Of a stretch of DNA of 64,000 nt, positions 4,207 through 61,474 are shown in pieces. Each line of letters opens with the position of its first letter. The stretch's first letter is position 1. Source of the DNA: Sacculina carcini (Eukaryota > Arthropoda > Thecostraca > Sacculinidae); contig OU696583.1 of the NCBI GenBank assembly GCA_916048095.2, positions 1,421,001 to 1,485,000 of the forward strand, read 5' to 3'. A model generated the notes under the pieces. That model saw only the letters and a list, made by a program, of their open reading frames with translations, was not told the DNA's origin and searched no databases. The position numbers and the translations under genes are program-made.

Positions 4207-6888
4207 CTAGTCCGCAAACTCTCCATTTGCCGGCGTCATGTGTGCGCGTAATTCACCGCCGCTTACACCTTCACCAACACCACTAACCAGCTGATAAAAC
4301 ACGGGCCGATCGGCGAAATGGTGTTGTTGACGATAATGGCGCAGCACTCGACCGTCCACCAAATGTCGGCCATACCGCACGGCTTCACCGCGGTCGGCCG
4401 CCAGGCCCACGCGCATCAGCCAGTCGACCAGCTGAACACCGGTGAACACGCGACGATACTGGCGCACACGACACGAACGTACGTCACGCTCCAGCTCGCG
4501 CCGACACTGGACCACGTGATAGGCGACGAATTGGGCGCAAATGGCGCGAGTATCGGCCGCCACGTCAGCTGGCTCGGGTAGCGGCACAGTGTCGCGTCCC
4601 CACACCAGACGGCGCCACCATCGCACCAGCGGCCCCACCACCACCTGGTCGTCGAGACCGAACAGCGCAAATACAAACACGCCCTGACCGAAGTTCAGCG
4701 CACCGTCAATAAAGTCGACCACAGCATACACGCCGACCATTCGCTCCATGAACAAGTTCCACACCGACAAAAACAGACCGACAATCATTGACAAGACGAG
4801 CAGCACTAGCAGTGTGACATGACGCTGCACTTGTAGCAGATGATCGAGCTCTACGGCGCCCACGCCGCCGCCGCTCGCCATCGCCGCCGCAGCATCCGAT
4901 ATCTCCAGACCCTCGTCCTCCAAATAGCCGCGCACCACACTGCGACACTGGCGGCCGCAGCCCGGATAGCAAGGTCGCGATCGACTGCAAGTGAGACGGT
5001 CGGCGGCGCCGGACCTCGACGCACCACGACGCTGCGACACTGCCGAGTGTTGCGGCGTCACATTTCCCCCCTGCTGCTGCTGCTGCTGTCTGTCCTGACT
5101 GTGTTCCTCGCTGCCCGACGACAACAGCGAATCATCAACGGTCGGAGAATCCTGGCCGTCATCGTCCTCGGCTTCTACATCACATTCAACACCACGCTCG
5201 TCTTGATCGCCGCTTGGATGTGCTGTCGCGTCTTGTGTATGCTCGTGTCGATGGTGGAGCACAAGACAAGTCACTGTGACACCCAGCGAAGCCGTCAGAA
5301 TGATAATGGCCGGCACCGATTCGTAACGGCCCAGTTCGAAGCCCGGATCTCCCTCGTACAAGTGGCGGCCGCCGTTGGTAGCCAGCAGAGCGACGGTGAG
5401 CAGTGCCGGCGCCGCCCAGCCGACCGCCACGAATGCCGGCCGACAGCGAAGCACGAAGCACAGCGATCGACGCTGAATCAACACCAGAGCAACGGCCACC
5501 ATCGCCGTCCATACGCGACTGCAAAACACACCGACTACGCGCGGCATGAAGCGCAAGTAGAAAGACGTGGTAGTTTGCGAGTCGGCGATGTAGGTGGATA
5601 GAATGGCGCCGACACACGCCAAGCTCTGCGAAATCACCAGGCAGGCAGTGAAAAAGTGCGGCACACGACGCACCTTGCCGCTCAGCACAAACACAACCAG
5701 CACCCACACACAACAGGCCAGTCCAATGAGGCCAATGTCGGCCAGGTAGACGTTGATGCTGTCTATGTAGTTGGCTGGAGCGACGGTCGAGTAGAGTGAC
5801 ACGACCCATGCCGACACGAACATCAGAGGCGTCGACACAAACGTGCCAATCAGCAACGCGTTGGCCACCACTGGCACAACCAGCTGGTACTGCGTCGCGT
5901 AGACCAGCACACTGGGAGCTGTAGGCAGAATGCCATAGAGGAAGGCGTAGTTGGTGATGTCGACGGTGAAATTGGACGCCGATGAGGAAGAGTGATCGCT
6001 GAGATCCTCCAGCACGCTGATGGTCTGACGGGTGATCAGCGGCATCACCACCGACTTGATCGTGATCAATATCAGGGGAACCATGTACGAGGAAGAGCTT
6101 ACCGAAGATGATGAACGGTTCAGCGGAGACGCCGGCGCACCGGGACGTGCCACCAGACGAAGACCGAGCACAAACAGCGCCGTCGCCGAGAACGACCTGC
6201 CGAATGTGTCGAGGATGTCGAAGAGAACGCGAGGAAGCGGACGTCCAGAGAGAATCAGGTTGCCGAGCAGTCCCAGTACAGTCATGACTACTATCGGGTT
6301 GGTGAGAACTCCGTGCACTGACGACACAACGATACGGCCTATGGAAACCTGGCGATTAATCCGGGTCTCGGCACCAGGGGACGTCACGCACATGTTCCGA
6401 TGTTTCCACAGTTCCATACAGAAAAATCCGATCGGGTTGAGTAGACATAACGAGACCGGTGCCACCAGGTACAGATAGTTAACAAACTCCGGGTGTGTCG
6501 TATCGTAGATGGCCGATATTATAGGGTATCCCATGGCAAAGTCGTTACTCTGAGTGCAGAAAATAGCGAACAAAGCCGCGATGGAAAGATGCGACGGTCG
6601 TGTCAGCAGCCATGTCATCGGTAATACAACGGCAAACACGATACTCTTGGATATGAGCACCGCAAAGAAAAAATTCCACTCGACCAACTGAAAATTCAAT
6701 GTGGTGAGCGACAAGAAGATCAGCGACGGCAACGCAAATTTACCGATGTATATCTCAATACCACGCGCCTGAGTGCTCGATATGAGGTGCAATCGACCCG
6801 CCAGATATCCAGCGAACGTCACACTGAAACACTGCACCACCGCCGGAAACAGCTCATCCAGCACCGATGAAGACGACTGTGTAGACAT
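4207..6888 (-). CDS. GPR155: Lysosomal cholesterol-sensing protein LYCHOS/GPR155, intronless
   Basis: One uninterrupted 893-residue frame. The N-terminal half is the auxin-efflux-like transporter domain with family motifs: LFPAVVQCFSVTFAGYLAGR near the start, then TQSNDFAMGYPI, YLYLVAPVSLCLLNPIGF, YAFLYGILPTAPSVLVYATQ and FVSTPLMFVSAWVV. A GPCR-like set of membrane helices follows. Then come an acidic, Ser/Gln-rich loop, one more membrane pair (FNFGQGVFVFALFGLDD) and a C-terminal DEP domain at about residues 782-868 (GVQLVDWLMRVGLAADRGEA). In vertebrates this lysosomal protein senses cholesterol and signals to mTORC1; that role is inferred here from homology. The start ATG at 6888 fits the family N-terminus. 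The vertebrate gene has many introns, so the single-exon structure is unusual. Confidence 0.95.
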   Translation of the reverse strand: MSTQSSSSVLDELFPAVVQCFSVTFAGYLAGRLHLISSTQARGIEIYIGKFALPSLIFLSLTTLNFQLVEWNFFFAVLISKSIVFAVVLPMTWLLTRPSHLSIAALFAIFCTQSNDFAMGYPIISAIYDTTHPEFVNYLYLVAPVSLCLLNPIGFFCMELWKHRNMCVTSPGAETRINRQVSIGRIVVSSVHGVLTNPIVVMTVLGLLGNLILSGRPLPRVLFDILDTFGRSFSATALFVLGLRLVARPGAPASPLNRSSSSVSSSSYMVPLILITIKSVVMPLITRQTISVLEDLSDHSSSSASNFTVDITNYAFLYGILPTAPSVLVYATQYQLVVPVVANALLIGTFVSTPLMFVSAWVVSLYSTVAPANYIDSINVYLADIGLIGLACCVWVLVVFVLSGKVRRVPHFFTACLVISQSLACVGAILSTYIADSQTTTSFYLRFMPRVVGVFCSRVWTAMVAVALVLIQRRSLCFVLRCRPAFVAVGWAAPALLTVALLATNGGRHLYEGDPGFELGRYESVPAIIILTASLGVTVTCLVLHHRHEHTQDATAHPSGDQDERGVECDVEAEDDDGQDSPTVDDSLLSSGSEEHSQDRQQQQQQGGNVTPQHSAVSQRRGASRSGAADRLTCSRSRPCYPGCGRQCRSVVRGYLEDEGLEISDAAAAMASGGGVGAVELDHLLQVQRHVTLLVLLVLSMIVGLFLSVWNLFMERMVGVYAVVDFIDGALNFGQGVFVFALFGLDDQVVVGPLVRWWRRLVWGRDTVPLPEPADVAADTRAICAQFVAYHVVQCRRELERDVRSCRVRQYRRVFTGVQLVDWLMRVGLAADRGEAVRYGRHLVDGRVLRHYRQQHHFADRPVFYQLVSGVGEGVSGGELRAHMTPANGEFAD

Positions 6889-7689
6889 GTTTGCTCAGTG
6901 GGAGCAGTGCTCGCAAGCACAACAAAAAGATGACGCCAACACTGCTATGGCGAAAAGACCCGGCAATCCCGTGGACCCGACTTGTGGGTTTATAAAAATA
7001 CCAACATTAGGAGGCAATTCTTTAAAGCTTTCCCATCAAAAGTGTAGGCCCATTTCCTGGAAAGTGCATCGCATAGCTTGTTAGCACAAATATATCATCA
7101 TCATCATTATATACGCCATTCACATACAAGATAATAAAACAGGGTACTATATGGCGGGCATGAGAAGCCAAAAGGCTTGTGCAGCCCTGAACAACATAAC
7201 ACAACTGTCAGGCCTCTATTGCAATCTGCAGCGAGAAAACCAAAATATTGACCAAAACAATAGCCTGTAAAACAGCAAAAGGAATATACAAGTAGGGCGC
7301 TGGACGATCCCATAAACAAGAAAACCACAAGAAATAGAATAATGTGAAATACAATATACATGCTTGACCGCCAATATTATTTGTACATAATTAGCGACCC
7401 ACCCGCTCGCCAACTACAGCTCGAGCTGTAACGCAACAGGCACAGAGTAAACATTAACACGCCCCAGGTTTTGCAAACGTCAATTACGCGTCACATCGCA
7501 AAACAACCAGGATATTTCGAAATACCTCACACTACGTTTAGAGTACACATGTCAGTCTGTCTGTCTGTCTGTTTCATTTTCATGTTTTCCATCTATATTG
7601 CTACGGACAAGCGAATTTAAGCCCTCATTTCTATCACACATCCACATATCATTACATATCCAGAGAAATATTTCCTCGAAAAGCTTACG
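6889..7689. other. 5' flank of GPR155
   Basis: About 0.8 kb between the GPR155 start codon and the LINE. It holds an (ATC)n run near 7093-7110 and a (TCTG)n run near 7554-7574. No gene or clear promoter motif recognised. Confidence 0.5.
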
Positions 7690-10620
7690 AGTAGCTTAGG
7701 TGCTCTTCATATTTTACCTTTCGGTCTACTCAATATCCGCTCCGCTCGCAATAAGTCCGCCTATATCTCCGAACTACTCCTTTCTCAGAATCTCTCCTTT
7801 CTCTGCCTGACTGAATCCTGGCTCATGGACTCAGACGTGACTGGCTTTTTGTCCCTACTGCCTCCTACTTACGGCTTTCTTCATGCTTCGCGATCCCCTT
7901 CGGGGTATGCGAAAACTATCGGTGGCGGTGTTGGGATAATATTCAAATCCATGTACTCCCTTTCTTTCTGCTCTGAAATTAAATTCTCTTCCCAGGCCTT
8001 TGAATTCCTTGCTGTTTCTCTATCAATCCCTTCATTGCCTAAATTCGGCATACTAATAGCCTACCGTCATAACCCTTCTGGCACGTCTTCCATGTTTTTT
8101 GACGAACTTGATTCCCTTGTTCTTTGTTTCTCCCAATACTTTTCCCACAACTTTGCTATACTCGGTGATTTTAACTTTTGGATCGACGATCCATCGTCAA
8201 ATCCGTTTGACTCTGATTTTTTCTCCTTTCTTGCTTCCCATGATTTGTCTATATTGAACTCTACTCCTACTCAAACATCCGTCCACACTCTCGACTTGTT
8301 TATCTACCCTTCAGGTATGTCCTAATTTTCTTTGTCTGATCCCTTCACTTTTCCACCCGATTCTGCTCTGTCGGACCATTCCCTCATCACTTTCAATATT
8401 CGCTCTTGTTCTGCTGTTGCTAAACAGTGTTCTCACACCTTCTCTGCTAGAGATTACAAGTCTTTCATCCCTGCCACGTTTCACTCCTTGCTCTACACTC
8501 ATCTAACGCCTACTTCTTATCTCTATCCATCCGCGGTTTCTTTTCGACTTCTTATCTTCTGCTCTTTCTACCATCAACAACGAATTATTTCCGCTAATTA
8601 CTCATCATGTCCGCTCTGCAAATCGTCCCCCTCCCTGGTTCTCGTCTGAATTATTCTCTCTTAGGGCAGCATCTCGTCGCTCTGAACGCCGCTGGCGCCT
8701 CACCCGTTTACCTTCGGATTGGTCTAACTTTTGTTTATCTCGTCGCTCGTTTCTCTCTACTCTTTGCTCTCAAAAAGCCAACTTCTACCGCTCTCGTCTT
8801 TCTTCCAATTCCCGTGCTCCTAGGAATCAGTGGTCAATCCTAAGATCCTTAAGTGCCGGACGTACCTCACCTTGCCCCATACCTGCTTCCGTCTTCGCCA
8901 AATTCTTTCCTGATAAACTAAACTCTATCCGATCTCAACTTCCTACGTCTAGCGTGCCTCTGACTCATACAAAGTCTAATTTAAACCTCTCGAGTTTTTC
9001 GCACATCAATATTTATCATACATCTCGCCTAATTTCTAAGCTGAAAATGTACCGTCGTCCCCTTGATCCTATAAACTTTTCGGCTCTCTCGGATTATGTA
9101 CATATCTTAGCTCCAGTCTTCTGTCATCTGATCAACTCTTCCTTCCTCCATGGATCCTTCTTAGCCGACAAACATGCTATAGTTAACCATATTCTCAAAA
9201 AAACCTTCTCTCGATCCTCACTGTCCTAACAATTATCGTCCTATATCGCTTTTAAGTCTTCCTTCCAAACTCCTTGAGTCAGCTATTCACGAACAACTCT
9301 CTTCTGTGATAAATCCTAGTCTCGACCCATTCCAGTCCGGTTTCGTCTCAAATCATTCTACCGAATCTCTTTTACTTTGCCTTGTAAATGACATCTTCCA
9401 AACCTTTGCCTCTGGTGATTCAGTCCTCCTGGTCCTACTTGATCTTTCCTCCGGCTTCGACCTTGTAAATCACCCTATATTACATAGGTAAACACAAGCA
9501 TACATGCATTCGCGCCCACAAACATATCATAGAGAGGCAAAAGGAGTCAAAGAATGAGTCACGGGATCAAAGGAAATTTCGACAAGATGTTTACGTAGAG
9601 AAGAGGTAAAAGATCCATACGTGAGCGAGGAGGTGATATGAGAAGGGAGCGAGTTATATAATCGAGGACCGTAGAACGAGAACCATTTAGAAGACCAGGC
9701 AGATTCATTGAGGGCGCGAGGACAGCATAGAGGAGCAGAATGACGGGAAGTGGGATTAGAAGAGGGAGAGAGCAGATCAGAAAGATATAAAGGTGGATTA
9801 GGAGCATGTAAGAGTTTGAATATTATGCAGCAGATTTTGAAGTGAATGCGCGATTTAATAGGAAGCCAACGGAATTGAAACAGAAAAGGAGAAGTATGGC
9901 GACAGAAGATAGGATGCAAAACAAAACGACAGGACTGATTTATTACGCACTGAAGAATTTAAAAAAAAAGAATTAGGACAGCTGAAGTGGAGTGAGCTGC
10001 AGTAGTCGAGTCTGGAGAAGATAAGATGATGAATAAGCTTGATTGCAGAGGGCTGATCGAGACAGGGACGGATGGGATAAAGCGAGCGATGAATCAAGCG
10101 ACAAGTGTGAGCAGTAGAAAGGATATTGGTTGAGAAGGAAAGAGAGGAGTAAAAAATAACACCGAGATTTTTAACAGTCACTGAAAGAGACAAGGGGAGG
10201 AAAGGAGGAGCAATACGAGGAGGATGAAGAGCGATATATTCAAATTTAGAAGTGTTCAAGAGGCGACGTGAGGAGGTTCAGGTCGAAATAGCAGAAAGTA
10301 CGTCAGACAAGATATTAGGATGCGAGAGAGAGCAAGGGATATAATTGGATATCGTCTGCATAAATATGAAAAGGAATGGAGTAGCGCCCAAGGATGGGAC
10401 AAAGAGAAGACATGTAGACATTTAAAAGGAGAGGACCAAGCATAGAGCCTTGAGGAACACCGGACTTAAGAGGGAGCACAGTAGAAACGGAGGAATTCTG
10501 ACGGAATATTCTGACATTTGTTTCACTTATATAAACATAAATACTATATTATTTTTATCTCATCCTGTCATCGCACCATTGTATATTTGGCGCTATATTA
10601 AATACATGTTGTTGTTGTTG
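7690..10620 (+). mobile_element. Degenerate L2/CR1-like LINE with inverted central segment
   Basis: Three blocks. About 7690-9490 (+) carries the apurinic endonuclease (LLNIRSARNKSAYISELLLS, CLTESWLMDSD, ILGDFNFWIDD) and the start of the reverse transcriptase (NYRPISLLSLPSKLLESAI, LLDLSSGFDLVNH). About 9490-10505 reads on the minus strand and contains the continuation: GVPQGSMLGPLLL, HIYADDIQLY, LGVIFYSSLSF, and the typical C-terminal region with YGPRLYNSLPSHI. About 10506-10620 returns to the plus strand and has an L2-type 3' end (GGCGCTATATTAAATACATG followed by four TTG repeats). Frameshifts and stops show it is dead. The layout implies an internal inversion with a small deletion at the left junction. 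Confidence 0.85.
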
Positions 10621-11309: not shown

Positions 11310-14300
11310 ATGGTCAAGAGTAATAAGAAAAAATTAACTAGGGGTACTAGAGGAATACCGTCTGTGTCTAATTTATCTCGCCAAGCTGGCGAGGTTGGTA
11401 GTTCATCTAATGTACCTATGGGCAGGGGTACGCGTGTAAGACAAGTTGTAGATGATGGCGGCACTGACAGTATTCAAAGCTGCCAGAACAACCCTTGTTC
11501 CTCTTTGCCGGTTAATGCTCCTGGACATTTTCCTATTTCTGCGCATGTGTCTGTACGTACCGCTCACAAACCTCCCGATTTGCAGAAATACGCAGCGGAT
11601 GCACCTCTTGATGGCTCTGTGGCAGCGGGTGCGCTTTCTGTCACCGATGCCCTGTGTAACTTTGCTTTGGCACATGCCAGAAACGATACAGCCGATTCTA
11701 GTGCGAAATCGTGTGTCAATGGGCACACATCATTTTCTTCTGTCGTCAATGGCGGTGGTGCTTTGGATTCCACTTCAACTACGAAGACTTCGGTGGAAGC
11801 CAAGGCCAACCCGACGTCTGTACTCACCAGTAGTGTTGTCTCAACCGACGCCAAGATTCCCTTCTTAAGCGAGCCGACTGATGAGGCAGCGGATACAAAA
11901 ATACAGGACGCTCAAAATGCCGAAAACAATCGAACCACGAGCGTATCTTCAGTTAGTCAGCAGATCGCAAACGCTGAAGTATTCACATCGGCTGTGGTTG
12001 ACTCTTCATTGCCTCTTATCTCGCAGCCGAACCAATTGTCTTTTCTCAATCCCACACTCGAGTCTGTCGTCAGTGCGCCGTGTTCGATAACCGACGATGT
12101 GTTGGCCGGTCACTGGCGCGCTGTGCAGCAGGACGCATTGGATTTCAGCGCGTGGACACGGCTGTTGCAGCACGTGGAGGCTGGCGGCGATTTGCGCGAG
12201 GTGCGGCGCGCCTACAACGCGTTTCTGCCCGGCTTTCCGTGCTGTTTTGCCTATTGGAAAAAGTACGCCGAGCTGGAATACCAGCTGGGCAACTGGACGC
12301 GCGCCTTCGCCGTGCTCGACTGCGGCCTCAGTGTGCTGCCGCTGTCGGTCGATCTGTGGCGCGTCTATCTGGACATGTACGACGACCACGCGCACCGGCA
12401 TCAATTGTGCTTGAAGCGGGTCAGTGTGGTGTACGAGCGCGCCGCCAACACGGCCGGTCGCCAGTTCGAATCGGACAGTCTGTGGGAGCGGATCATGTCG
12501 TGGGCGGCCGCCAAGACCGATCCGTCCTACGTTTTTCGGCTGTATCGGCAAGCGGTGTGCACGCCGACGCGCCACTGCGACAAACACTGGGACGCGTGTC
12601 TCGCACACGTGACCAAGCACAACCCGCACTGTCTGGTGTCGTACGACGAGTACTGCGAGATTCGCCGACGCTGCTGTGCTCAGTTGGGCGTCGAGTATCG
12701 CGAGGAGCCGCTGCTCAAGGGCATCAAAGGCTCCAAGGACTTCGCGCTGGTCGAGGCGATGCGCGAGGACATTGTCGAACAGCTGCGGCCGCTGCACGCG
12801 CGCGCCAAGCTCAAAGTCGACAGGGTGCTCAAAATGGAGGACAAGTTGAAGCGGCCGTATTTTCACGTGGTGCCGCTGGACAAGCGACAGTTGCGCACGT
12901 GGCGCGAGTATGTCGAGTTCGAGACCAAGCACGGCCGGCTGAGCGATGTGGTACTGGTGTACGAGCGGTGTTTGGTGGCTTGTGCGCAGTACGAGGACTA
13001 CTGGATGATGTACGCCGCTTTTCTCGAGCGTCAACTGGAGATCAAGCGTTCGGTGCCGGTCAAGACCGATGCAGCTGCCGCGCCGGTGGTCAAATTGGAG
13101 CGCACTGATTCCACAGACGATTCGAGCAACGGCGGAGGCGCAGTGTGTCCGGCATCAGAGCCTAGTCGTTCTGAGTCGGCCGGTGAGTGTGTCACATCCA
13201 CTGAACAACCCGCTGACAGCTCACCGGCGCCAACAGCTCAGGCAACGAGTGACGGCCAGGCGCCTTGTAAGATGGAAACTGACGCCGACAACAAGGCTGC
13301 GGCCGACGGCAAGGATTCAGTTAAAGACGAGCCTTCTTCTCCGACGACGACGACGGCCGACGACATCGGAGATGAAGATCTGGCTGATTTGCCGCGTCAG
13401 CAATGGCCGGTTCAGTTGGATATCAGCATGCACACACTGTCGGTGCACACAGTTCGCAACGTGTATCGGCGTGCCTGTACCGTGCACTGTCGACGCAAGC
13501 CCAACATTCGTCTGCAGTGGGCCAGTTTTGAGGAGGAGCACGGCAGCGTGGACGACGCGCGCGTTCTTGTCACGCACGTGTGCGACGGCTGGCCGACGGC
13601 CGTCAGTGCGCGACTGCAGCTGATCGGACTGGAGCGGCGCGCCGGCAATTTGACGCGCTGTGTGCAGCTGTACGACACGGCCGTGCAGGCCAGCCAAGAG
13701 CAGCCGGCGTTGCGCACGTGGTGGGCGATGAAACAGGCGCGCTTCCACTTCAAGATCCTGCACAAACCAGACCGGGCGTTGGCCGTGTTGCGCAGTGCGC
13801 TGAAACGCGACCGCGCCAACACACGTCTGTTCAACCACATCCTGGATATTTGCTACCAGCGCAACCCGGTGGACATTAAGGGCGTCGGCGCCGTGCTCAC
13901 CCTGGCCATCGGCAACAAGGATATCGCGCCGGCCGATCGACTGGCCTTTCTGCGCAAGCGTGTCGAGTTCTACGAGGAGTTTGGCAGTGTGCAGCAGCTG
14001 CGCGCCGCATCCGTCAGTCTCGCCGCCTTCGATAAGCAACTGCAGCGCGATCAGAAACGCGCCGCTAAAGAAGGCCAGCCATCTTCGACCAAATCGTTGG
14101 ACGCCGATGGCAAGCCGTCGGTCGATGGACACTTGTCTGCGGCGACCAGCGACGATGGCAATCCGACAAGTGGCAAGCGCAAACGCAAGGCTGGTGATGC
14201 GGCGGTGACTGCCGGGGAAACGTCGCTCAGTGTCTGTCCCGGCTGCAGACTGAATCTCAAAGATCCCGTAGCCGTCGGGCTGGCCAGGAATATGGCTGCC

Positions 14301-15839
14301 GGTATGGTGATGTCTGCGCCGATGGGCCAGCCGCCGATGTCGATGCCTCCATCGATGCCACCTCCGCCGGTCATGGCGCCTAACATGATGCCGCCACCAC
14401 CGCCCATGTTTTTCCCAGCTCCGCCTTGTTCTACCGGCACCGCTAACTGGCAGTCACAGCCGGCGTGCTTCAACCCCGTCACCGCTTTCCCGGCACCCTT
14501 TCCGCCCAACATGTCACTGCCCCCCGGCCAGATGGGGCCGATGGCAGGCGACTTGGCTGCGACGAACGCGCCGGTCTCTGCCGGTCCGTCAGACATTGCT
14601 GCCGTCACGGCGTCAGTGGCCGAATCTCTACCACCGCCGCCGCAGCAGCAGCAGCAGCCTCCGCTAGCCGTTGCCACGAATATGGCGGCCGCTATTGCCA
14701 TGTCTGGTTCAGCCGGACCGATGAGCGGCAACAACAATGCAATGCCGAACGGAGGTTGTCGCTCGGCTGTCGGTCCAGTTTTCACGTCACACACGCCGCC
14801 TCCGCAACAGCAGCAGCATATGGTTGTCAACAGCCAGAACTGTGTGCCTGGAGGAGGCGGCGGTGTTGCCATGCCTTTCTGCGCTGCACGGCCCCCGTTC
14901 ATGCAACAACAACAACAACAGCAGCCAATGAGTGGGCCGACATTGTGTCCGCCGTGGTCCAACGCTGCTCGCACGCTCGCACCTCCACAGCAGCAAGTCG
15001 GGCAGCTGTGCGGTGCGGCCTCGTCGTCCATGTCTTCATGGCTGAACGTGCCCGGCTGGTTTGCGGAGCGCGGCGGCTCGCTGTGCATATCGGAGACAAG
15101 CGGTGGTCGCGCCGTGTTGCACTACTCGCCTCGCTTCCTCAGTGAGAAGGGCTACACACGCATGCTCGACTCGCTAGTGACCGTGGTCAACTGGCAGCCG
15201 CGTTGTCTGTCGGCATCGAAGGCCGTGTGCGGCGCCGGCGGAGATGTTCTCTCGTCGGCCATCGAGCGCTACGTGGCGTGGTTCAGTCACGCCGCCGCGC
15301 CGCTCGCCGAGTCCGACCATGCCGCGTGTATCGGTCACTCATCAATGACGCAAGACGTCGGCGATCAGGAGATGTTGGCCGACGATGATGGCGCAACAGT
15401 CAGAGGAGCCGAGGGATTCTACGCCGAGTGGCCGCCCGAACTGTCGGATCTGCTCGGCCGTCTGTCGGCATTCACCGGGCTCCAGTTGAACAGCTGTGCG
15501 TTGACGCTGTTTCGCGGCGGTCGTGATTTTAGCACGTGGCGACACCGGTCGAGCGACGCCGACGCGACGCTCACTCACACTGCCGCAGTGGTCGTGTCGC
15601 TGGGTGCCGTGCGTCCGCTGGAGCTGCAGTCACGTCAAACGTCAGTCTCTGCCGGCGGCGATTGTGCTGCTAGCGGAGGCAACGCAGCAGAGGGGTATAT
15701 GCGACTGCTGCTTCCTACGGGCAGTGTACTCGTTCTGGATGGCAGTGCGATGACCGACTGGGCTCAGCGCGTGCCCGTAGACCGGTCGTGTCAAGGAGAG
15801 CATATCAGTTTGGTGTTTACAAACATGCGCGAAGACTGA
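11310..15839 (+). CDS. PRPF39: PRPF39-like U1 snRNP factor fused to a degenerate AlkB domain
   Basis: A single exon of 1509 residues from the ATG at 11310 (TATCATGG context). Residues 1-277 are Ser/Thr-rich and look disordered. About 278-575 and 695-920 are HAT helical repeats typical of Prp39/PRPF39 (WKKYAELEYQLGNWTRAFAV, LWRVYLDMYDDH, RPYFHVVPLDKRQLRTWREY, EDYWMMYAAFLE, FNHILDICYQRN), split by an acidic linker. PRPF39 helps U1 snRNP recognise 5' splice sites. A basic cluster (GKRKRKAG, about 954) follows, then a Pro/Met/Gln-rich stretch. From about residue 1244 an ALKBH2/3-like dioxygenase fold appears: LHYSPRFLSEKGYTRMLDSL, TGLQLNSCALTLFRGGRDF, VVVSLGAVRPLELQ, LPTGSVLVLDGSAMTDWAQR. The iron ligands are not conserved: no HxD (HRSSD at 1412-1416), Gln1486 where the distal His belongs, and HISLVF instead of the Arg-containing 2-oxoglutarate motif. 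It is probably a pseudo-enzyme. Confidence 0.88.
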   Translation: MVKSNKKKLTRGTRGIPSVSNLSRQAGEVGSSSNVPMGRGTRVRQVVDDGGTDSIQSCQNNPCSSLPVNAPGHFPISAHVSVRTAHKPPDLQKYAADAPLDGSVAAGALSVTDALCNFALAHARNDTADSSAKSCVNGHTSFSSVVNGGGALDSTSTTKTSVEAKANPTSVLTSSVVSTDAKIPFLSEPTDEAADTKIQDAQNAENNRTTSVSSVSQQIANAEVFTSAVVDSSLPLISQPNQLSFLNPTLESVVSAPCSITDDVLAGHWRAVQQDALDFSAWTRLLQHVEAGGDLREVRRAYNAFLPGFPCCFAYWKKYAELEYQLGNWTRAFAVLDCGLSVLPLSVDLWRVYLDMYDDHAHRHQLCLKRVSVVYERAANTAGRQFESDSLWERIMSWAAAKTDPSYVFRLYRQAVCTPTRHCDKHWDACLAHVTKHNPHCLVSYDEYCEIRRRCCAQLGVEYREEPLLKGIKGSKDFALVEAMREDIVEQLRPLHARAKLKVDRVLKMEDKLKRPYFHVVPLDKRQLRTWREYVEFETKHGRLSDVVLVYERCLVACAQYEDYWMMYAAFLERQLEIKRSVPVKTDAAAAPVVKLERTDSTDDSSNGGGAVCPASEPSRSESAGECVTSTEQPADSSPAPTAQATSDGQAPCKMETDADNKAAADGKDSVKDEPSSPTTTTADDIGDEDLADLPRQQWPVQLDISMHTLSVHTVRNVYRRACTVHCRRKPNIRLQWASFEEEHGSVDDARVLVTHVCDGWPTAVSARLQLIGLERRAGNLTRCVQLYDTAVQASQEQPALRTWWAMKQARFHFKILHKPDRALAVLRSALKRDRANTRLFNHILDICYQRNPVDIKGVGAVLTLAIGNKDIAPADRLAFLRKRVEFYEEFGSVQQLRAASVSLAAFDKQLQRDQKRAAKEGQPSSTKSLDADGKPSVDGHLSAATSDDGNPTSGKRKRKAGDAAVTAGETSLSVCPGCRLNLKDPVAVGLARNMAAGMVMSAPMGQPPMSMPPSMPPPPVMAPNMMPPPPPMFFPAPPCSTGTANWQSQPACFNPVTAFPAPFPPNMSLPPGQMGPMAGDLAATNAPVSAGPSDIAAVTASVAESLPPPPQQQQQPPLAVATNMAAAIAMSGSAGPMSGNNNAMPNGGCRSAVGPVFTSHTPPPQQQQHMVVNSQNCVPGGGGGVAMPFCAARPPFMQQQQQQQPMSGPTLCPPWSNAARTLAPPQQQVGQLCGAASSSMSSWLNVPGWFAERGGSLCISETSGGRAVLHYSPRFLSEKGYTRMLDSLVTVVNWQPRCLSASKAVCGAGGDVLSSAIERYVAWFSHAAAPLAESDHAACIGHSSMTQDVGDQEMLADDDGATVRGAEGFYAEWPPELSDLLGRLSAFTGLQLNSCALTLFRGGRDFSTWRHRSSDADATLTHTAAVVVSLGAVRPLELQSRQTSVSAGGDCAASGGNAAEGYMRLLLPTGSVLVLDGSAMTDWAQRVPVDRSCQGEHISLVFTNMRED

Positions 15840-16525: not shown

Positions 16526-16946
16526 TGTTGTTTATATTGTGTTCCATGAATGATCTCATTTGACTAGCCGATAACTATCATAATCACAGTTGGTCTTCGG
16601 ATTGATTGTGCACGTGTCGCATCGTGGGTGGCGCCAGGTTCGTCGCAGCGGTGAATTGCGACACAGCTGCCAGCTCAGCCAGTGAGAGTTGCCAAACATA
16701 TGAGTTTATGTCACTGGTATGATATTGAATTGTTCAAACCTCGCTGGTTTGTTTTTGTGTATCTTCTGAAAGAATAAAATACGTTTAAAACAAATGCACA
16801 ACTTTACTTGTACGTATGCGTGTGTGCGTGTGCATGACAGATTGGTATGACTATCCGCGTGGACACACAAGAACTAGTTAGAATGTTTTCAACTGGACAT
16901 GATGCACCCCACTGATATGCCACCCTTTCTTGGTAAGTCCAGCTAG

Positions 16947-21768: not shown

Positions 21769-24700
21769 CTATGTGGACTTCATAGACAGCCTCTTGTCGC
21801 GTTCTTCGGCGATCGACAGCTTCACGCCCTTGCCCTTGGGCAGCGACACATACGCCCGCGTGCCCTTGCCAATGATAAAAACGTTGCACAATCTGCAAAC
21901 GCAATGAAAATCGGCGGAAATTCAGTAAAATGTCGATTGAAAGTCTCAAATTCTATGCAGCGATCTTAATCGTTGAACATTGAACTTCCTAATACAACCA
22001 CCTAAACAAATAGCCCATATATCAAAACGCCCAGAAGTGTGATAATTTTGTGTTAATATAAATCCCCACAACATTTTTATTTATTGTTGGATGTTTCTTA
22101 TTGAATCATATTTAATGTTCTTGATTGTTTTTTATTAGTATTCATTCTTATTTATTGATGGTGGTTATTTACTGAATCACATATTTAATGTTGATTGTTA
22201 TTATTTATTGAGGAACGTGGGCGGTGGCATTATTTTCTCATCATCGTTTCGTTTTCAATTCTCTTTCTAGAATTGTTTTCTTCTCGAACTCTCTTTCTCT
22301 CTGAATATTTTGGTCAGCTTCCGGCACACATGGGGCCACCGCGCACAGGGTGGTAATAGTGCACTTGCACTCTTCCCCCATGCTACTGGATTTGCCTGTA
22401 ATTAATACTAATAACAATCTAACCTGCCTACAACAACCTGAACCCCAAAACCCCCAGAGGGGCGGTGTAGCGAACCCGTGTTTTTCCCCCACAGACTACA
22501 ACACTCACCTGGTGGCAAACTTGTGGCCAACCGTGTCCTTGATGTGCACGATGTCGAAGGCGCCCGGGTGCTTCTCGCGATGAACCACCGTGCCGACACG
22601 ACCCAAATTACGACCCCCCGTCACCATACACAAATTACCTACACAAACACACACACATACATTGAGTTCGTTATTCCATTATTGACAAGCACTAGGCAAT
22701 TTTTATTCCAATATAATTTTACTTACCGTATTTGCCGGTGCATAAGTCGACCCCCTAAAATTCGACGGAAATATACGATATTATGATATGATATCATTTG
22801 TATAAGTCGAGCTCAATTGTTTCATTATATTAAACTTTAAAATTCAATCAGAAATATGCGAAATTTATTGACGAAATGTGTTCAAATTCGCGAGTTTGTA
22901 GCGAGCGATCTATACGCCATTTTAAATATTATTTACTTTGAAGCGCATCCATCACATTTGAAGCGATGAATACGAAGTTAATTTTTAACTCGATGTACAA
23001 GTCGAGGTCGATTTTTGATCGAAAATGGTCGACTTATACACAGGCAAATACGGTATTTCTTATGAGTGTGATGTTTACGCACTCGACCGGGAGGTGTAAT
23101 AGTAATTTGTATATATATATATATATATATATTAATAGTAATTTATTAAGTAATATATATATATATATTAATAGTAAATGTCGTCATTAGTGGGATTATA
23201 TGAGTGGATTAACACAACATTAACATAATGGATTTCCAATCAGAACCAGACGATGCACATTCCTTCAAGAATTATATGGAAAACAAACGAAGAAAGACAG
23301 CATACACACACACACATACGCTACAAACAAGAATGTGTATGTACATGTGTGTGTATGCGTGTGCGAGCGTATGTATATTTGTGCGAGTATATGCAATTGT
23401 ATGTATGCATCTTTGTGTGTGCGTGTGTGTATATGTATGTATATGTGTTTCACTATGTATGTATGTATGTGTTTCACTATGTGTGTATGTGTATGTATGT
23501 GTGTTTCACTGTATGTGTATGTATATGTATGTATGTGTGTTTCACTGTGTATGTGTGTATGCATGTGTGTTTCACTGTGTATGTGTGTATGTATGTGTGT
23601 TTCACTGTGTATGTGTGTGGGTGTGTTTCATTGTGTGTGTGTATGTGTGTTTCACTGTGTGTATATGTGCATGTATGCGTGTGGGTGTATTTCATTGTGT
23701 GTTATATGTGTGTGGGTGTGTTTCATTGTGTGTATGTATGTATGTGTGTTTCACTATGTATGTATGTGTTTTACTGCGCATGTGTGTTTCACTATGTGTG
23801 TATGTGTGTTTCACTATGTGTGTATGTGTGTTTCATTGTGTGTATGTGTACGTATGTATGTGTGTGTTTTACTGTGTGTATGTGTATGTATGTATGTGTT
23901 TTACTGTGTGTATGTATGTGTGTTTCACTGTATGTATGTATGTGTGTTTCACCAGTTTCGAATTTGAGATAGTCCTTGATTTTGCCGGTGGTCAGGTCTA
24001 GTTGAATGGTATCGTTGATTTTGATGTGCGGATCGGGATAGCGAATTGTGCGGCCGTCGTGCGTCACCAGCTGCGGGATGCCCTTCACTCCCTTGCGAAT
24101 GTTGCGCACTCGACACAATTTATACTGTATGACCGCCAAACATACACACACACACACACATGCATGAGTACAAACAAAAGAGATGAGAGAAATTCAATAT
24201 ATTCATAATTAAATACTTGTTTATTACCTGTTATTATTATATATTGTCTATTATAAATTATTATATTTATGTTATCCACACTATATTTACAATTTCTGCC
24301 CATTGTAACTCTTGTTTTGTCGACAATTTCTAGATTTTCTCAAATTTACTCCTGAATTTTCACGCCGTCAGTGATTATTCTACAAAGCAGTATTATAAAA
24401 ACACACACAGAGAAAGACGTTACCGAAGCCTCCTCCTTGGAGATGCGATGAACGGCATAGCGACCCTTCACGTCGTAGACCAGACGGAAATTCTCGCCTG
24501 TCTTGTCAATGGAGATCACATCTGTCGTCCAACACACAAACAAGCAACGTGTTTGGTTAAAGGTCTCAAGTGACAGCTGCTACACGGGAAGAAGTCGAAG
24601 CTTATGAACACACACAGGTGTGTCCCGTGCAGCTCGCTGTCACCGCAGAACCAACCCTCTCCACGCTATGACGCCACAAGGACGTAAGACGTATTAGAGA

Positions 24701-43255: not shown

Positions 43256-46027
43256 GCGGGCGGGAGAATAAGTGAGCGTTCAGTGGAGCCGCGAGAGACG
43301 GCCTGGCTTCGGCAGCGAATAAGCCTGGCCGTCATTCGTGGCAACGCCGCCTCCATTGTATTGTAGTATTGTGAATATGTGTTACGTGTTTGTAAATATA
43401 TTTGTTTGTGTGAAAAAAAAAACACACACACACACACATACACAAGCACACACAGATACACACACACACACACACACAGATACACACACACACACAGAGA
43501 CACACACACACACACACACAGATACACACACACACACAGATACACAAGCACACACAGATACACACACACACACACACAGATACACACACACACACACACA
43601 CATACACACACACACACACACACACATACACAGATACACACACACATACACACATACACATACACACAAACACACACACAAACACACCTGCAGCAGGTCT
43701 GGGTGTAGGCAGGCAGTACGTTCGACTACGGTGCGCCACAATTGTAGCGCATCGTCCAGTAGATACACATGCTGGGGCTGTTGCAGATCTGTGCTCACCA
43801 CCAGTACATCCAGCACTAGCGGACACAGAGCTTGTGTGGCCTCGCCGAGCGCCTCAACCAGGTGTGTGAGTGTTGTGACAATAACAGCGCACAACATACC
43901 CATGTCGGCGCCCGCCACGCATGACGACGACGTATCTGACGCGGCCGAACGCCACAACTGCGGCAAATACGCCAGCAGTGCGTCACAATGCGGACGAATG
44001 GCCGCATCGAGACGTTCAACGACGCACGACACAATATTGAGCACGCGCAACTTGGTGTCGCATTCGGACACTTCGACCAGCAGCTGAAAGAGACGAGCGA
44101 AAATCTCGCTGAGATAGGGCACAAACTCGTCGATGCCAAACTCGAAATCGTCGACGGCATCGCGTAGCGTCTGAGCAGCCGTTAATCGCACGACTAAATC
44201 TTCTCGTTCGGCGTCGAGCAGCTGTGCTATGGCCGCATAGATTGGGGCCCGCATGGCAGGCGCGATTTTCACGCCCACCCAGCGGCCAATCAACCAGAGA
44301 ACGCGTCGCCGCACGATGCCGTACTGCGGCGGCGTGTGTGTGGCCAGCTCGCGCAATAAACCGCCGCGCAGCCAGCCGTCAAAATCGACGTCGTCGTACA
44401 AATCGAACGCCGCCCAGCCGACGGCCGTGTAGAGGGCGTCGCGCGCCAAAATCGCCGCCAATTGCGTCTCGTCCGCGTTGCTATTATCGTCGAAGGTGCG
44501 TCGCATCATGTCTAGCAACAGCGGAGTCATGCGGCCTTTGTACAGACGAAACAGCGCAATGAACAGACACTCGACGTGTGGCGCCAGCGATTGACCCTCG
44601 GCGGCCGCCGGCAGACAAGAAGATGAGGTGGACCGGCCGGCCGAGTCGTCGCTGCAGTAGAAAGCCTCGGGATCGTCGGTCCATGCTTGCAGATCGTCGG
44701 CCGTCAGAGGAATATAGCGCTGCACCAGCTCGTTGAGAATGTGATCCAGCGGCTGCGAGCCGAAAAAATCGCCAATCACCCGCCGGGCCTGCTGTGCGCG
44801 CTGTTGCACAGGTGATGGCGGCGGTGTGGCTTCTAGCTGGGGCGAGGCTTCATTGCCGACGCCGCTGCGATACTGCGGACACAGCAGTATACAGCGCAGC
44901 ACGGCAAGACACAGAACGGTGACGCGGTTGAACAGCAGCGCCTGTCCCTCGGCGCTAAACAACAGCTGACAGCCGAATGCCAGACAATCACCGACGCTGG
45001 CGACCAGCGAGAACGCGTGCTGGTCGATGACATCTAGCAGAAGCTTGAAGTGCACGCCGGCGTATTTGCTCAGCGCCTCGACCAGAACGGCCCGACTGCA
45101 CTGCGGATCACCCTCAACGGCCGGCGCTGAAGAGGTCGTGATCAGCTGATGTCTGGCGATCAATGCGTGTCGACATCGCTCCAACACGGTGCCAATCAGC
45201 GGCTCGACTAGCGTGTCGGCGTGTGAAGGACACCGCGCGCCGTACACCACCAGTCGACGCACGATCTTCAACGACAAACGCGCGCAGCCCACGGTTGTTG
45301 ACGTCATGGTTGACGTTGCAGAGGCACACATTGCAGGCAGTGTGTCGCTGAAGCGCTGCCAGGCAGCTAGAGCGATTGGCAGGAGAGCGTCGGTGAGCTC
45401 GTAGAAAACTCGGCGATCGCTCATCAGTCGCTTGGACGCCAGGGCTCTGGTCACGTGATGCAGGCCGAGCAGCGCGCGCTGGCAACTCAGCTGAATGGAC
45501 ACTCGGTCGCCGCCATCGCCTCCTCCTCCTGATATTACAGCAGCTGTTAGAGTCGGAACAAGTTGCGGCCAGTGGCGAGGACAATCGCCGCGAGCCAGCT
45601 TGGCCACCAAAACGGCTAGCTGCACAGCGACGGCCGGCGTTGGCTCGTGGAGTAGCGCGTGCAGTAGACGCTCACGAATGACGGCACGATCTGCCTGCGG
45701 TACAGCATGAGGCGGCGGCTCGGCGGTCGGTGGATGTCGGCGCCAGCACACGTCAGCGGCGTTTTTGAAGTAGACGACGGCCATCCAGCGCACGGTGGCC
45801 GCGCCACTTTGGTCGCCTGACGCGTCAGCTTGGCAGTAGCAGCACAGCTGCGCCAAAACTGTATAGAAGCCAGGTGATGATTGCCACAGTTTGAGCACGC
45901 ACTCAGCCTGCTTGAGTCGCACCGGATCTTGGCTGGCGGCAGCCTGCAGTGCTTGCGTCACGCTGGCGTCGTTCATCGGTGGCGGTGCGTCACATTGGCC
46001 GCCGCCAGCCAAGCCGTTGCTACACAT
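41545..46027 (-). CDS. IPO11: Importin-11
   Basis: Karyopherin-beta nuclear import receptor; the vertebrate protein imports E2 enzymes and ribosomal protein L12. Exons in minus order: 46027-43688 (780 codons), 43224-42664 and 41982-41545, all phase 0, giving 1112 residues against 975 in human. Family matches are VRWMAVVYFKNAADVCWRRH, KLARGDCPRHWPQLVPTL, ALASKRLMSDRRVFYEL, RRRVLWLIGRWVGVK, DLVVRLTAAQTLRDAVDDFE, CDTKLRVLNIVSCVVERLDA and, across the last junction, MIWQ-AERRKLCALALCHLLP. The start at 46027 has a GGCCACC context. The 2.3-kb first exon contrasts with about 30 exons in vertebrates. A SINE copy lies in the second intron, and the first intron is mostly (CA)n on the plus strand. Confidence 0.95.
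42336..42605 (-). repeat. tRNA-derived SINE, copy 2 (headless)
   Basis: Body matches the other copies (AAGTGACAGCTGCTACACGG, GATATCTGGTACCATCATTT), but the tRNA-like head is missing, so it is 5' truncated in its own orientation. It lies in IPO11 intron 2, about 60 bp from the exon 2 donor. Confidence 0.85.
43225..43687. repeat. (CA)n-rich IPO11 intron 1
   Basis: Largely CA repeats with AGATACACACAC interruptions (43425-43680), plus a short CA run directly beside the exon 2 acceptor. On the coding strand these are GT repeats. Confidence 0.9.
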
Positions 46028-46939
46028 GGTGGCCGGCTGTGAAAAAGCGAATTGAAAAATATACACACGGCACAGGACACTTGAGAGAAAACTTGTTACG
46101 TTGTCGATAAATAAACAGTGTGTGAATACTTGAGTCAGTAGCAAACACGTGCAGAAATACAGAATAGTGCGAATAAAGAACTCACCATAACCACTGTCTA
46201 TACAATACCAATCATTAGAATTTTCGATTGGAGAACTTAAAATTCACAATTAACCATGTCTGCTGTTGTAACAGGAGCGCATCTCTCGTCGATATTCCTA
46301 AACGTTAGTAAAAGCGGTTCACATAAAATGAAATTCTTTATTATTTCGAACAATAAATCGCATATGCACAAATTAGAGCATATTAAGTGATAATAATACA
46401 CTACTGAGAATAATGAAAAAACGTGACAAAATTCCCGGAATTTCCGCCGACTGGCATCTCTCGTAATTTATGGATATGGATAAACAATTCACATACGCGT
46501 TATCATTCATTAGTGTCGTTCACATTGTCGAGTATGTTAGTGTTGGCTGTTGTTAATTAAGTAATTTGAAAGATTGCTTGTCAAACGAAATTTCCCAATG
46601 TTTTTGGGTCTTATACTTTGATATAGTTATAATATTGGTTAGAATTGTATCTGAATCAATTTCATATACCATGCCAGAATTTGTATATAGCTTGTGTGTC
46701 AAATGTACCTCGTACATATACAATACTGTGTTTGTCGGGCGATTTACTTTATTACGACATGCTTGTTTTCCAGATCGCATAAATTTTCAGCTTACATCTT
46801 CCAGGTTGTATGACTGTCTACTGACATGTCTCAAGATTGGCTTATGGTGCGCCGTTTAAAACGACGACAACAGATTTCCTTGTGCTGCTTTGTCGCTGAG
46901 TTTGTATAGGGCCCGTGACAGGGCCACTAGACGGACACG
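46028..46939. promoter_or_regulatory. Divergent promoter region IPO11 / RALGPS
   Basis: 912 bp between opposite start codons, A/T-rich, with no recognisable coding exon. Both genes probably start transcription here. The RALGPS first exon is tentative, so its side is less certain. Confidence 0.45.

Positions 46940-61474
<14,535 letters not shown>

Follow-up and report, generated by a model that had tools for sequence, protein, structure and literature searches.

A predicted PRPF39 paralog of Sacculina carcini joined in one open frame to an ALKBH2/3-type domain with a degraded iron/2OG site

A single open frame in the genome of Sacculina carcini very probably encodes, to judge from its sequence, a PRPF39-type protein with a fused, catalytically inactive domain of ALKBH2/3 type. 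The frame lies on the forward strand of the window, the 64,000-nucleotide stretch of DNA analyzed here (C18:1421001-1485000 of a 264-Mb assembly of 43 contigs), where positions 11310-15839 read as 1509 codons and a stop without any internal stop or shift. The fusion is known from one genome, and titles and abstract beginnings in the open-licence literature yielded no other PRPF39-AlkB fusion. The reading that we lean towards is that of a diverged, uninterrupted PRPF39 paralog carrying a pseudo-ALKBH3 arm, which may serve as a docking module on the U1 snRNP.

The window protein carries both HAT halves of PRPF39

The preliminary description of this DNA held that one frame links Prp39 HAT repeats, a Pro/Met/Gln-rich linker and an ALKBH2/3-like part, and this architecture was borne out along all 1509 codons (Table 1). 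The Pfam models HAT_PRP39_N (PF23240; E 2.4e-52, 177.9 bits) and HAT_PRP39_C (PF23241; E 3.3e-44, 150.8 bits) both scored above their cut-offs, and the N- and C-terminal HAT repeats are present at full length. A PDB search matched PRPF39 structure 6g70, which we take to be the mouse protein, at E 6.9e-80 with both HAT halves aligned and complete in each. Unlike 6g70, the window protein has in addition an N-terminal extension of 260 aa, an insertion of 130 aa, the Pro/Met/Gln linker and the AlkB domain. The Suf model (PF05843) reached 70 bits in the window protein versus 578 bits in the CSTF3-like protein of contig C9 (L028), which also passes the PRP39 HAT models but with Suf far higher.

Table 1. 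Features of the predicted PRPF39-AlkB fusion gene, in window coordinates
Feature	Position	Strand	Basis or remark
Open frame	11310..15839	+	ATG 11310, stop 15837-15839; A at -3, G at +4
N-terminal extension, ~260 aa	11310..12089	+	Low complexity by eye; no Pfam match
N-terminal HAT repeats, residues 265-576	12102..13037	+	PF23240, E 2.4e-52; 6g70 residues 86-402
Insertion of ~130 aa between HAT halves	13038..13436	+	Ser/Thr/Asp/Glu-rich by eye; not in 6g70
C-terminal HAT repeats, residues 710-944	13437..14141	+	PF23241, E 3.3e-44; 6g70 residues 403-640
Pro/Met/Gln-rich linker, about residues 1000-1236	14307..15017	+	Read from the frame translation
ALKBH2/3-type domain, residues 1260-1509, iron/2OG site degraded	15087..15836	+	Sequence, profile, predicted fold
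T1399 and F1401 replacing Asn and Tyr (N-x-Y, 2OG pocket)	15504..15512	+	Columns 185, 187; Asn/Tyr 19/19
R1411-HRSS-D1416 replacing HxD	15540..15557	+	Columns 197-202; His to Arg, 3-residue insertion, Asp alignable
Q1486 replacing the distal iron His	15765..15767	+	Column 274; His 19/19
H1498 and T1504 replacing both Args of RxxxxxR	15801..15821	+	Columns 286, 292; Arg 19/19 each
AATAAA, possible polyadenylation signal	16773..16778	+	Read directly from the sequence

The C-terminal part matches ALKBH3 in sequence and predicted fold

A single-sequence PDB search (phmmer) with the C-terminal domain returned ALKBH3 as the best match (E 3.9e-7); ALKBH3 took ranks 1-4 of the 16 matches and ALKBH2 the other twelve (best E 0.011). 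ALKBH3 was also found when the whole protein was used as the query (E 4.8e-6). Profile comparison against 19 bacterial ALKBH2/3-type proteins (20 loci fetched, 19 used, some partial) gave E 3.8e-16 over 182 columns, spanning residues 32-271 of the 273 in the domain. The Pfam AlkB model PF13532 scored 21.5 bits on this part, under its cut-off of 31.2, and was unlisted in the scan of the whole protein; the NCBIfam scan gave no AlkB family.

Fold prediction from the domain sequence alone reached a pLDDT of 33.6. With the 19 relatives aligned, pLDDT rose to 69.5 and pTM to 0.70, with 84 of the 273 residues below 50. In a Foldseek comparison of this model with the PDB, ALKBH3 filled rows 1-9 (E from 3.0e-12; TM-score 0.68-0.76 by target and 0.53-0.57 by query; rmsd 6.1-7.7), and the rows after ALKBH3, to row 25, were mostly ALKBH2. 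Across all ALKBH3 matches the rmsd was 4.0-7.7 in gapped alignments, and many of the ALKBH3 and ALKBH2 matches are structures solved with DNA. Because the input alignment consisted of AlkB proteins, the fold match of the model is not independent proof; the phmmer match and the profile comparison are independent of it. Together, sequence and predicted fold point to an ALKBH2/3-type fold over the whole domain, in agreement with the fold first proposed and with the structural check suggested for it.

A bacterial protein matched the domain at 46 bits and 40% identity (query residues 80-197), and a human ALKBH3 fragment at 34 bits and 29%; since the query lengths differ and the human fragment is the one animal ALKBH3 in the comparison, these scores do not decide on a bacterial origin. 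Scanning viral contigs with the domain gave no relative. A study of AlkB evolution suggests an early emergence of ALKBH2 and ALKBH3 in their clade (PMC8868631).

A probably conventional PRPF39 and three other AlkB genes detected in the genome

Genome searches, in which only the best candidates were scored, placed the HAT region at five sites: the window gene, three places on contig C2 and the CSTF3-like gene on C9. The three C2 places belong to one intron-bearing PRPF39 of about 21 kb, with no AlkB match nearby. With the window protein and a mouse fragment as queries, seven coding pieces of this gene were recovered at E < 1e-3 and two weaker ones at 0.009 and 0.40; by eye, the piece borders were mostly GT/AG, the end after the eighth piece being an exception. 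Over 402 common columns the C2 peptide shares 178 identities with mouse, the window protein shares 141 with mouse, and window and C2 share 147, in a comparison where the C2 peptide was assembled from nine pieces with partly guessed ends and mouse was the only outside sequence. The window copy is thus not the gene of this genome closest to mouse PRPF39, and on these alignments we regard the gene on C2 as the conventional PRPF39 and that of the window as a diverged paralog. The initial proposal of an AlkB domain on a U1 snRNP factor stands as far as the PRPF39 type is concerned; it has to be amended in that the carrier is a diverged second copy in a genome that also has an ordinary, intron-bearing PRPF39.

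With seven to nine pieces in the C2 copy, retroposition of PRPF39 is possible. Intronlessness is insufficient as proof of it: a transporter-DEP gene of the window, found in one copy, and the CSTF3-like gene also have long uninterrupted frames. Among the handful of genes seen on C18, C2 and C9, long uninterrupted genes occur together with the intron-bearing PRPF39, a mixture that would fit the loss of introns from one gene at a time.

Four queries, namely human ALKBH2, human ALKBH3, a bacterial relative and the domain of the window protein itself, found no ALKBH2/3-type sequence in the 264-Mb assembly beyond the window gene, which the ALKBH2 query matched weakly (E 0.118); an ALKBH2/3 gene split into small exons could escape these searches. 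PF13532 detected three other AlkB genes, resembling ALKBH8, ALKBH6 and ALKBH1, the last two names being presumed from motifs. This model may miss degraded AlkB domains, because the window gene itself was unlisted at E 0.001. ALKBH8 is a tRNA enzyme with an RRM-AlkB-methyltransferase order and, like the window protein, has its AlkB domain joined to other domains. The ALKBH8-like gene of this genome (L001 544-2460, minus strand, on C2) is one uninterrupted frame of 639 aa with AlkB and methyltransferase parts, and it keeps the HxD motif, unlike the window AlkB domain.

Most of the iron/2OG site has been replaced

To describe conservation in the AlkB domain, we used columns with a conservation of 90% or more among the bacterial rows, dropping those with fewer than 12 bacterial letters (n = 50). 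The window domain keeps the same residue in 22 of these. Seven of the columns are iron/2OG positions, whose roles we take from the AlkB literature; all seven are invariant in the 19 bacterial rows, and only the Asp is kept. Among the remaining conserved columns 21 of 43 are kept, including all five Trp. Unlike ALKBH3 and ALKBH2, which are its top sequence and fold matches, the window domain has six of the seven iron/2OG residues replaced, is acidic and is fused to a splicing factor. It has neither the HxD...H iron ligands nor the N-x-Y and RxxxxxR 2OG residues of an ALKBH2/3 enzyme. The loss of the iron site claimed at the outset holds for the distal His, both Args and the HxD His, but it is less complete at the HxD Asp, which can be aligned with D1416, and H1412 adjoins the expected place of the HxD His. 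From the alignment, HxD appears to have been disrupted by substitution and a 3-residue insertion and not wholly erased, and its Asp may survive.

These replacements bear on the possibility that the AlkB part is a functionless passenger drifting in decay, whether or not the fusion is expressed. The change at 28 of the 50 conserved columns is consistent with decay, as is the position of the window paralog as the more diverged PRPF39, and the difference in retention between the core and the iron/2OG site, in the expected direction, is not significant on its own (one-sided hypergeometric probability ~0.09, by hand). Nevertheless, the frame is intact over 1509 codons, the five conserved Trp and the strand pattern are retained, and the AlkB part has a coding-type codon score of 0.20 per codon in frame 0, with -0.17 or less in all remaining frames. 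We regard decay as rather unlikely, while giving it real weight.

The AlkB domain is acidic

The aligned region of the window AlkB domain has a net charge of -9, a pI of 5.22 and a Lys+Arg content of 7.7%, versus a net charge of 0 to +7, a pI of 7.27-10.84 and 10.6-15.2% Lys+Arg in the 19 bacterial relatives, which include partial sequences. The C-terminal part of ALKBH2 is basic (pI 10.62), and that of human ALKBH3 is near neutral (net -1, pI 6.72). In both the alignment and the model, an acidic stretch of low confidence separates two parts of the AlkB fold.

The preliminary description had suggested a nucleic-acid-binding role for the dead AlkB domain, perhaps in sensing RNA close to 5' splice sites. 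Such a role would suit a domain that resembles ALKBH3 and ALKBH2 structures most closely in fold, many of which contain DNA, and whose HAT partner belongs to a U1 snRNP factor family. The acidity of the domain weakens this reading, since Lys+Arg falls below that of 19 of 19 bacterial relatives and the fold is interrupted by an acidic stretch; the proposal thus found no support here and we consider it unlikely. Charge is nonetheless weak evidence, because the near-neutral C-terminal part of human ALKBH3 means that an acidic pI alone does not exclude binding. For the AlkB domain, protein docking appears as likely as RNA binding, or likelier.

Coding potential supports one continuous gene

A codon score, for which two further long frames in the window served as the training set, ranked frame 0 top in all eight segments of the gene, some of which overlap and two of which were won by small margins. 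The N-terminal extension scored below zero in all six frames (frame 0 at -0.21, the next at -0.26), and the linker was near zero (-0.035 versus -0.058). Because these scores are negative and the margins small, it is the absence of stops that carries the coding status of both regions. This touches on whether the fusion is a gene-model artefact, in which two separate genes or transcripts share a frame by chance: the linker between the HAT and AlkB parts is of low complexity and gives hardly any codon signal, and the fusion is read from DNA. From base composition, however, the last 510 codons would stay open by chance with a probability of ~1.3e-6, and every other frame of the same stretch is broken by 7-22 stops, which makes an artefact very unlikely. 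Also very unlikely is an AlkB domain that retains oxygenase activity through an atypical metal site (HRSSD for HxD, and other ligands), for which D1416 and the nearby H1412 might be invoked, as the distal His is Gln and both Args and the Asn and Tyr of the 2OG pocket are replaced.

A candidate docking module on the U1 snRNP

Yeast Prp39 and Prp42 and human PrpF39 dimerise through the C-terminal half of their HAT repeats, and Prp39-type proteins of yeast and human contact U1C (PMC5648754). By analogy, the HAT part of the window protein would join the U1 snRNP via U1C, and the paralog might act alone or, in the manner of the yeast Prp39-Prp42 pair, form a heterodimer with the ordinary PRPF39. 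The likeness lies in the two Prp39-type paralogs per genome; pairing in this animal is only possible. The yeast chains have 629 and 544 residues, versus 1509 in the window protein, and neither is known to carry an AlkB domain.

The dead AlkB domain would then offer a surface for docking, with a protein as a likelier partner than RNA, and through the paralog U1 could gain an additional contact at particular 5' splice sites. We put this docking mechanism forward tentatively, as somewhat short of an even prospect. A broader scenario, speculative and on balance doubtful, is that the only remaining ALKBH3-type repair gene became an arm, devoid of catalysis, on a second PRPF39. The U1 snRNP would then contain an asymmetric, Prp39/Prp42-like dimer whose pseudo-dioxygenase member serves to recruit or recognize some partner at a subset of 5' splice sites.

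If expressed, the fusion would be a splicing factor with a domain of a demethylase family whose chemistry has been dispensed with, and an AlkB-family pseudo-enzyme tied to the first step of the spliceosome. It would provide an animal counterpart to the two Prp39-type paralogs of yeast, let one ask what an AlkB fold does without iron, and may explain the fate of the ALKBH2/3-type gene of this animal.

Other features of the window

An Rfam scan of the window gave 0 matches at gathering scores. On the minus strand, positions 4210-6894 hold an intronless frame of 893 aa with membrane-transport (PIN-like) and DEP domains, found in one copy in the genome and presumably resembling GPR155/LYCHOS. Also on the minus strand, 43385-46243 hold a frame of the importin-beta family (IBN_N, importin-11-like TPR), mostly in one exon and running into a CA/TG repeat, which we take to be IPO13-like. 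By eye, the remains of a LINE-type retrotransposon, with endonuclease- and reverse-transcriptase-like frames, occupy 7621-10277. Very long repeats of CA/TG type recur in the window, for example at 1107-1617, 23224-23998, 43367-43866 and 59183-60541, and yield long open frames in which Cys alternates with Val or Thr with His.
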